Shown: piece after piece, positions 21,953-24,355 of the stretch
How the letters are laid out: every line of letters starts with the position of its first letter
Position numbering within the stretch: position 1 is the stretch's first letter
IMG/VR virus record: IMGVR_UViG_3300048121_000225
Coordinates: 1 to 24,737 of that record
Strand: one strand, 5' to 3'
DNA: 24,737 bases
From: a virus
Program-made: the position numbers and the translations under genes
The notes under the pieces: generated by a model
Databases searched by the model: none
What the model saw: the letters and a program-made list of their open reading frames with translations, nothing else
What the model was told of the DNA's origin: nothing

Positions 21953-22000
21953 AACTATGCTTGACCGAGCTTATTGTTAATTTTACTACAGGAGGACAAA

Positions 22001-22465
22001 ATGACAATTCAAAACACAAACTTAATGGAAGTACTAATCAATAACCTAACAGATACTACATCTAAGAATGACTCCAAGTTAGAGAGTAAGATGAAGTATA
22101 TCTATAAATGTCATATTGGTACATTGAATAGATTAATTGCAAGCATGGAAACAGAATATGAAACTGGGTCAGCTATGTTGCTTGAGATTATTGATGACGA
22201 CTACGACCTAGACGCTAAAGGTGGCTATGGTCGTGGTGCTTTTGAACGTTATACTGGCTTTGGATTCCCAAATGACTTTGATAAACTTGATACTTATCTT
22301 GGTGAGTTGAGAGTTCGTATCGATCAGATGACTGGCTACAAAGCTATTGAACAGGAAAACTTCGAGTCCAAGTGGGGTATGCTAACGTTCAAGAATGGTT
22401 CTTCTACTAACAAGCTAACTGATAAGCAGAAAGCTAAACTCAAAGAAAAGTATGCTAAGGCTTAA
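22001..22465 (+). CDS. Hypothetical protein, first rightward gene
   Basis: The start at 22001 is preferred because AGGAGG lies 5-6 bases upstream; a longer TTG-started frame from 21974 would read through that site. The 154-residue product is not one I recognise. It has a helical N-terminal half (MEVLINNLTDTTSK, KYIYKCHIGTLNRLIASMET), an acidic and Gly-rich centre (IIDDDYDLDAKGGYGRGAFE) and a Lys-rich C-terminus. There are no membrane segments. As the first gene after the probable rightward promoter, it is likely expressed early and strongly. Its stop codon lies in the loop of a hairpin. Confidence 0.8.
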   Translation: MTIQNTNLMEVLINNLTDTTSKNDSKLESKMKYIYKCHIGTLNRLIASMETEYETGSAMLLEIIDDDYDLDAKGGYGRGAFERYTGFGFPNDFDKLDTYLGELRVRIDQMTGYKAIEQENFESKWGMLTFKNGSSTNKLTDKQKAKLKEKYAKA

Positions 22466-22524
22466 CAGCCTTAGCAATCTCTACTCAGTTCTACTGAGTA
22501 GAGATATTATATCTTTTTCTTTTT
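22454..22524 (+). terminator. Tandem hairpins, probable terminator, after the first rightward gene
   Basis: GCTAAGGCT/AGCCTTAGC (22454-22475) forms a perfect 9-bp stem whose TAAC loop contains the stop codon. A second perfect 12-bp stem, ATCTCTACTCAG/CTGAGTAGAGAT (22477-22505), follows with a 5-base loop. A T-rich tract (TTTTTCTTTTTC) begins 8 bases after the second stem, a little far for a classical intrinsic terminator. The pair probably terminates or stabilises the upstream message. Confidence 0.6.
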
Positions 22525-22788: not shown

Positions 22789-22809
22789 CGATTCAATATG
22801 GAGGACAAC

Positions 22810-23703
22810 ATGAATCATATGACTAAATCAAGTATTGAAAGACTAGCTACAGATCATTGGGAAGACTACAATTTTCCAATAGAATCTGTGCCAATCAAAG
22901 CTAATGTAGATGATGATCCATCAGGTGATATACATATACCTGATCGTGTTGCATTGGTACGAACAGATACAAATGAGTATCTAGCAACACACTCATTGCA
23001 ATACAGACCAGTACTACACAAAGATGTAGTGAATCCTGTAATGAATATCCTTGATCGTATATCTATGGATTATCATGTCAATGTAAGGCTGCATGACAAT
23101 GGTGCATTGATGGTAGCTAAGTTTACTTGCAGAGATATAATGATAAAAGATCCGTCACTCAATGATTACATTGCTTATCAAGTGACACTACGTAATTCAT
23201 ACAATGGTATGTGGTCAGTCATGATCAATGCGTATGGCTTGCGTATGTTCTGCATGAATGAATGTACTACACCTGATAAGATTGCCAACTTCAAACTCAA
23301 GCACAATGGTATCTTCAACTATAACTTTGAGCATCTTGAACATTCACTTGATGTCTTTCGTAATAGTGAAGAGAAGTACAAAGCATGGCATGGTATGCGT
23401 GTTGATGAAGATGATGCTGATCGATTGTTTCAAAAGGTATGCTACTCAGCACGACCAACAATAGATGGTAAGCACTACAATGCAACACAAGTATACAACC
23501 TTCAAAGACTATGGTCACAATACAAAAGCGAAATGGGTAGCACAGTATGGAGTCTGTACAATACAGTAACACACTGGGCATCACACCCAACAGAAGTATC
23601 ACGACCAGAGAAGACAAAGGTTGAACGTAACAATGCATTCACTAAATACTTGCAACACAACAACAATATATTTCTTGACATAAAGGAGGTAACAAATGTC
23701 TAA
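22810..23703 (+). CDS. DUF932 family phage/plasmid protein
   Basis: The start at 22810 is chosen because GGAGGACA lies immediately upstream; the in-frame ATG at 22798 overlaps that site. The 297-residue product fits DUF932 (PF06067), found in phages, plasmids and integrated elements: an N-terminal VALVRTDTNEYLATHSLQY segment (about 47-65) and a core with LRNSYNG (127-133) followed by GLRMFCMNEC (143-152) and KHNG (164-167). The C-terminal part has LYNTVTHWASH. No enzymatic activity is established for the family that I know of. It ends in a short overlap with the next gene. Confidence 0.85.
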   Translation: MNHMTKSSIERLATDHWEDYNFPIESVPIKANVDDDPSGDIHIPDRVALVRTDTNEYLATHSLQYRPVLHKDVVNPVMNILDRISMDYHVNVRLHDNGALMVAKFTCRDIMIKDPSLNDYIAYQVTLRNSYNGMWSVMINAYGLRMFCMNECTTPDKIANFKLKHNGIFNYNFEHLEHSLDVFRNSEEKYKAWHGMRVDEDDADRLFQKVCYSARPTIDGKHYNATQVYNLQRLWSQYKSEMGSTVWSLYNTVTHWASHPTEVSRPEKTKVERNNAFTKYLQHNNNIFLDIKEVTNV

Positions 23704-24120: not shown

Positions 24121-24129
24121 GTATTCACT

Positions 24130-24255
24130 CTAACAAGCCGAAAGGTCACAGTCTTTAAAAGGCCTATAGTCTATCCTGTAAGCTGACATTAAGTTCACTT
24201 GTGATGACAGATAGGTAGATATTGTTAGAGCGATGCTGCTTGCTAGTGCAATCAT
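24130..24255 (-). CDS. Possible 41-residue protein opposite the structured RNA
   Basis: On the minus strand AGGAGGACATA directly precedes an ATG at 24255, and the frame MIALASSIALTISTYLSSQV continues NLMSAYRIDYRPFKDCDLSAC to a TAG. The ribosome binding site and start match those of the gene at 22001 in 13 of 14 positions, which is hard to ignore. The N-terminus is hydrophobic, like a weak signal or membrane segment, and the C-terminus has two Cys. Against it: all neighbours run rightward, no promoter or terminator serves this strand, and the ribosome binding site sits in a hairpin loop. Confidence 0.35.
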   Translation of the reverse strand: MIALASSIALTISTYLSSQVNLMSAYRIDYRPFKDCDLSAC

Positions 24256-24312
24256 TATGTCCTCCTATGCCTAATGATTGGTTGCACCACTAGTAAGTAG
24301 CACAAATTAATA

Positions 24313-24343
24313 GGGGATAATAGGGAGGGTTATCCCCCTTTTT
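24313..24343 (+). terminator. Intrinsic terminator abutting the next ribosome binding site
   Basis: GGGGATAA (24313-24320) and TTATCCCC (24330-24337) form a perfect 8-bp stem with a 9-base loop, followed by CTTTTT. The GGAG of the next gene begins only 3 bases after the T-run. A terminator this close to a start codon either ends the upstream RNA or acts as an attenuator for the downstream gene. Confidence 0.65.
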
Positions 24344-24355
24344 ATGGAGATAAAT

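Follow-up and report, generated by a model that had tools for sequence, protein, structure and literature searches.

The window analysed here is a 24.7-kb viral contig (24,737 nt) that carries terminase, portal and major head protein genes on its minus strand and, from 22.0 kb on, a DUF932 gene and small genes on its plus strand. Among cultured phages, Pelagibacter phage EXVC031P Hodr is the closest by portal protein (57%), and plus-strand genes diverging from the structural genes are an arrangement common to the window and Hodr. It is because of this genome layout that we take the plus-strand genes to be early. Phage records searched with the window DNA and with DUF932 yielded zero matches in both cases. 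The DUF932-domain gene occupies 22810..23703 on the plus strand (Pfam PF06067, E 7e-17). Upstream of it, gene 22001 is followed by a strong intercistronic hairpin with a terminator-like tail (22477-22515). Downstream lies a non-coding 220-nt stretch, 24121-24343, made up of three parts: a folded module, the main hairpin and a terminator-like hairpin.

The main hairpin spans 67 nt of the plus strand (24235..24301). Its 14-bp lower stem pairs 24235-24248 with 24288-24301, its 9-bp upper stem pairs 24249-24257 with 24272-24280, and the remainder consists of a 7-nt bulge (24281-24287) and a 14-nt apical loop, UGUCCUCCUAUGCC (24258..24271, plus strand). Folding of 24121-24346 gave -72.6 kcal/mol on the plus strand (z -4.1 against shuffles) and a weaker structure on the minus strand (z -2.6); the hairpin that the preliminary description had placed at 24234-24302 is thus real, the fold being recovered at 24235-24301. 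Searches of viral contigs located it in 16 contigs besides the window, and the alignment comprises 12 distinct versions from marine phage relatives, all with the same fold. Stem pairing holds up in these phages: all 14 of the 14 lower pairs are intact (100%) across the 12 versions, and at the base of the upper stem L002 carries a C-G to U-A double change, the only compensatory pair in the window-type alignment. When hairpin and terminator were searched for together with a covariance model, neither the window nor the relatives yielded a second copy, and a search of genome contigs for host copies returned neither the hairpin pattern nor a DUF932 relative.

Which strand is used? Two imperfect stem pairs had been read as G-U in plus RNA and as mismatches in minus RNA, favouring a plus-strand function, and the relatives bear this out: both positions alternate between G-U and A-U and are never mismatched in plus RNA. 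Because the one-sided changes are wobbles in plus RNA only, and because the opposing frame is unconserved, the functional strand of the hairpin is, as judged from sequence, the plus strand. The converse, that the minus strand is the functional one and AGGAGGACAUAAUG serves a small protein gene as ribosome binding site (RBS) and start, is barely credible. A perfect Shine-Dalgarno (SD) sequence and ATG do stand on the minus strand in all relatives, and unrelated viral matches (L056-L064) mostly resemble opposite-strand gene starts; against this, the stem substitutions mostly alter the amino acid encoded in that frame while preserving plus-strand pairing, and the surrounding genes lie on the plus strand. 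The opposing 41-codon frame (24130..24255, minus strand) measures 41, 21, 15 or 9 codons in relatives, and the minus-strand small protein was rejected on account of this shrinkage to 9-21 codons. A minus-strand frame kept while stem pairing is lost, the pattern that would have spoken against the hairpin, was not seen; the relatives show the reverse. The unrelated matches are the nine further viral contigs that a looser hairpin pattern retrieved; as most of them resemble RBS-plus-ATGATT gene starts on the opposite strand, we read them as chance and do not count them as hairpin relatives.

Conservation of the loop is confined to its centre. Positions 24259-24268, GUCCUCCUAU, are invariant in all relatives, and this 10-nt core is constant while 15 of 40 unpaired columns vary (P 0.004), the variable columns lying in the bulge, the linker and the loop flanks. 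These patterns support a constraint on the loop at the level of its sequence. As previously described, the plus-strand loop displays UGUCCUCCU at 24258-24266.

To follow the locus beyond the close relatives, a DUF932 profile search was used; it returned 80 loci, and 77 contigs were examined for a hairpin. A stable hairpin is present at the corresponding place downstream of DUF932 in 45 of the 77, and 38 of these 45 syntenic loops contain CUCC or UCCUU (among distinct pairs 23 of 29, where shuffling gives an expectation of 5.0). This family-wide scan is the strongest of the results. Counted as distinct loops, 9 of 17 at the DUF932 place bear an anti-SD motif as against 2 of 95 other hairpins on the same contigs, although the Fisher P of 2e-7 is optimistic because the loops share descent. 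That the loops are anti-SD in character is a firm result. Place and loop type are common to the window and sister-group hairpins, but stem sequence is not. The sister phages have 15 distinct stems, which are 100% paired and show 22 double changes, and the one-sided changes are all plus-sense wobbles; the stem covariation score is 0.40, a value that 0 of 500 shuffles attained (0.15 in shuffles), and slid partners score at most 0.07. Since the sister stems covary and keep all their pairs, the stem evidently changes while the loop remains anti-SD. Loop length between the arms ranges from 4 to 19 in these phages, and some loops, of 4-6 nt, are short for stable pairing. It had been suggested that the loop might mimic the anti-SD tail of 16S rRNA. 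For the window loop this is unlikely, because UGUCCUCC and the DUF932 leader deviate alike from the 16S tail (CACCUCC) and the standard SD; the loop core of the sister phages, CUCCUU, is nevertheless identical to the 16S tail.

The main sister group has the hairpin GUAGCYA...GCUAC, and ~9 nt separate its end from the start codon of a small gene without a visible SD, whose homologue in both L003 and L008 encodes an HTH_3 protein. Such a gene, HTH_3 by these homologues, begins ~9 nt after a long hairpin downstream of DUF932 in L014, L067, L074, L080, L092, L102 and L120. Could the loop be recognised by a protein of phage or host, or could the inverted repeat act as a DNA operator, for instance of the nearby HTH_3 protein? 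Strong loop conservation and the HTH_3 gene next in the operon are what one would expect, but a loop length of 4 to 19 between sister arms would break operator spacing, the one-sided changes are wobbles of RNA, and the asymmetric loop is conserved rather than the arms alone. We consider this explanation very improbable.

The second hairpin (24312..24343, plus strand) resembles an intrinsic terminator: 9 pairs of a G+C-rich stem precede UUUUU, and its loop, UAGGGAGGG, is purine-rich. The L002 counterpart (L002:6513-6546) has had its sequence replaced, with the stem kept and the U-tract lost. On the other side of the main hairpin lies the upstream folded module of ~100 nt (24128..24230, plus strand), closed by CUCUAACAA/UUGUUAGAG and flanked by 8-bp inverted ends, TCTAACAA/TTGTTAGA. 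It has two alternative inner parts, one in L011/L002 and one in the others, and may be a structured element that is mobile, or a further RNA. The module is absent in L003/L005/L022, which keep the main hairpin, and present in L065/L066, the sisters of L028/L029, without the main hairpin, terminator or next gene; hairpin and terminator together thus act like a cassette that can be exchanged. A clean case of presence and absence is offered by two near-identical sister phages, of which one has the hairpin, the terminator and a small gene as a unit and the other does not (L028:5172-5502 versus L065:10250-10318).

Such a setting recalls the early region of the podovirus T7, which has bulged intercistronic RNase III hairpins and an early terminator. 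The likeness to the window lies in the bulged intercistronic hairpin with a terminator in the early region; the T7 hairpins are not known to have a conserved anti-SD loop. The main rival to a regulatory RNA is an ordinary intercistronic hairpin, serving as an RNase III-type processing site or mRNA 3'-end stabiliser and followed by a leaky terminator that sets early-gene ratios, with the RBS match secondary. The position between early genes, the terminator with its U-tract and the long bulged stem, which is compatible with an RNase III processing signal, all fit, and relatives without the main hairpin often have another long one there, in some cases without the anti-SD core. What an ordinary hairpin does not predict is an invariant loop core amid a variable bulge, linker and loop flanks, or anti-SD loops on unrelated stems; moreover, L002 is without the U-tract yet keeps both hairpins. 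We judge this account doubtful, although it deserves to be taken seriously.

A further alternative keeps the action local. The loop would pair within its own transcript, with the purine loop of the second hairpin or the next RBS (AUGGAG), or would control the SD-less HTH gene in sisters, gating termination or translation in cis. The replaced second loop of L002, GGUAGGAG, pairs over 8 bases with that phage's own main loop (P 0.001 against random loops; 0.01 against random purine loops), and the sister hairpin ends ~9 nt before the start of an SD-less HTH_3-type gene. The loop-loop match of the other relatives, however, is no better than that of random purine loops (P 0.12-0.69), and the downstream genes vary among relatives while the hairpin stays. 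Kissing of the two loops was thus discarded as a conserved feature, only L002 standing out, and the cis reading as a whole is unlikely.

If the loop pairs with early RBSs, as the reading of a regulatory RNA holds, which RBSs are they? The first candidate is gene 22001. As had been claimed, UGUCCUCCU is exactly complementary to AGGAGGACA before this gene (21990-21998), and 13 of the 14 bases of AGGAGGACAAAAUG, covering its RBS and start codon (21990..22003, plus strand), pair with CAUUAUGUCCUCCU. The hairpin's own antisense strand aside, the match between UGUCCUCCU and AGGAGGACA is the sole perfect 9-mer match in the window. Of 28 gene starts tested, that of gene 22001 pairs best, at -20.8 kcal/mol (P 0.002 against shuffles of the flanks that preserve the TCCTCC core, with no correction for how many starts were tried). 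Conservation of this target together with the loop found no support: apart from the window, only L005/L006/L012 and L010 have gene 22001, and the other hairpin-bearing relatives have a different gene with a non-matching RBS in its place. As it is limited to so few relatives, gene 22001 cannot explain hairpin conservation, and we rejected it as the conserved target.

The DUF932 leader (22790..22816, plus strand) is the second candidate. The preliminary description had located the eight-base match of the loop to its RBS correctly, at 22800-22807; only the start codon had to be moved, to 22810. The pairing of the main loop with this leader extends over 8 bp plus 3 bp across a bulge, and the DUF932 start ranks third of the 28, at -18.1 kcal/mol (P 0.04 in core-fixed shuffles, uncorrected for starts). 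Its SD, GGAGGACA, can fold into the loop of a GAUUCA/UGAAUC hairpin, which makes a loop-loop contact plausible. The leader UUAACGAUUCAAUAUGGAGGACAAYAUGAAUCA is near-identical in all close relatives having the DUF932 gene, and GGAGGACA is kept in every close relative holding both hairpin and gene. This includes even L017, with a DUF932 protein from a different clade (82% to that of the hairpin-less L038, 49% to that of the window). Evidence against DUF932 as the target comes from L028/L029, which keep the hairpin with a DUF932 gene that is distant (31%) and without GGAGGACA.

Does the loop follow its leader through evolution? Single cases suggest so. The L015 loop, CUCCUUGU, is the 8-nt complement of ACAAGGAG before its own DUF932 gene; in L014, GAUCUCC in the loop faces GGAG-G-AUC of the leader. 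That L014 combines a well-pairing leader with a different hairpin speaks, on the other hand, against the regulatory reading. Own loop-leader pairs also outperform swapped ones (P 0.0008; 0.014 with a slightly different leader window). With the window's class left out, however, the swap test gives P 0.42, and a control gene of the same operon gives P 0.007. Specificity for DUF932 therefore lacks support, as relatedness can explain the signal, and DUF932-specific covariation was set aside apart from the suggestive cases of L015 and L014. Perfect runs of loop match are longer at early plus-strand than at late minus-strand starts (one-sided P 0.027), a difference that is partly trivial because any anti-SD core matches strong SDs. 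Likewise, CCUCC pairs with any SD core, which counts against specific pairing. In many relatives (leaders of L014-L043 and L067-L131) the start region of DUF932 closes a short hairpin whose loop contains the SD, the closures being GAUUCA/UGAAUC, GUUCAU/AUGAAC and AUGGUU/AACCAU; such folds suggest that the gene is structurally controlled in its own right.

The hairpin was also compared with known RNAs. Rfam gave no match at the gathering threshold in the window or its relatives, other matches being at chance level, and no known RNA family was assigned. The c4 antisense RNA derives from the same operon as its target. In phages P1/P7 it blocks the translation of a phage mRNA, its loops base-pairing in the region of the RBS (PMC12197685). 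The c4 target is an antirepressor and its phages are temperate; here the target would be DUF932 or another early gene and the loop is of the anti-SD type, and no sequence relation between the two is known. The cuckoo/alpha-r14 small RNAs of Alphaproteobacteria, among them NfeR1 and CcsR, carry an ultraconserved anti-SD motif in loops whose stems diverge, and RBS blocking by NfeR1 has been demonstrated by reporter assay (PMC10746234). These RNAs are host-encoded and have three hairpins, each with CCUCCUCCC, whereas the phage operon has one hairpin with GUCCUCCUAU (CUCCUU in sisters), the second having a purine loop; CCUCCUCCC was not found in unpaired regions, the loop being UGUCCUCCUAUGCC in the window and of CUCCUU types in sisters. 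The phage element thus resembles cuckoo/alpha-r14 and c4 in its proposed way of working and belongs to neither. Yfr1 of marine cyanobacteria is a small RNA whose conserved C/U-rich unpaired motif inhibits translation initiation (PMC6778093); the motif is ACUCCUCACAC (PMC2190773). It differs from the window hairpin as a host gene with another motif and architecture, and SD blocking as the usual route in cyanobacteria has been doubted (PMC6778093).

What, then, might the hairpin do? The loop has what a base-pairing repressor needs, an accessible stretch complementary to RBSs with perfect matches of 9 bp and 8 bp, and the hairpin is probably a translation switch, as far as comparative sequence data can tell. 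The fuller reading, a regulatory plus-strand RNA of the early operon that pairs with RBSs and controls translation, is the best of the explanations, and we put it at slightly less than an even chance. Such an RNA would either be released from the early transcript by termination or processing or remain part of it; a convincing promoter for the hairpin RNA was not found. Its anti-SD loop would pair, loop-to-loop first, with strong early RBSs, that of DUF932 here and that of 22001 where present. This pairing would block 30S binding, and early genes would be translated less with rising levels of the transcript; late genes, with their weak SDs, would escape the effect. The shut-off of early translation proposed earlier is possible on this scheme.

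A broader proposal is more tentative, and we hold it to be considerably less probable than the regulatory RNA itself: that the window hairpin belongs to a widespread class of phage intercistronic anti-SD hairpins with varied stems in the DUF932 operon of marine podoviruses, forming an RNA-only early-to-late switch that would act through RBS pairing, perhaps on host mRNAs too. Several stem and loop versions exist, each with its own leader. The RNAs with anti-SD loops among the systems compared above are host RNAs, and the one described here is phage-borne. A phage lineage that rebuilds the stem and retains an anti-SD loop points to control of early translation at the RNA level in marine phages.
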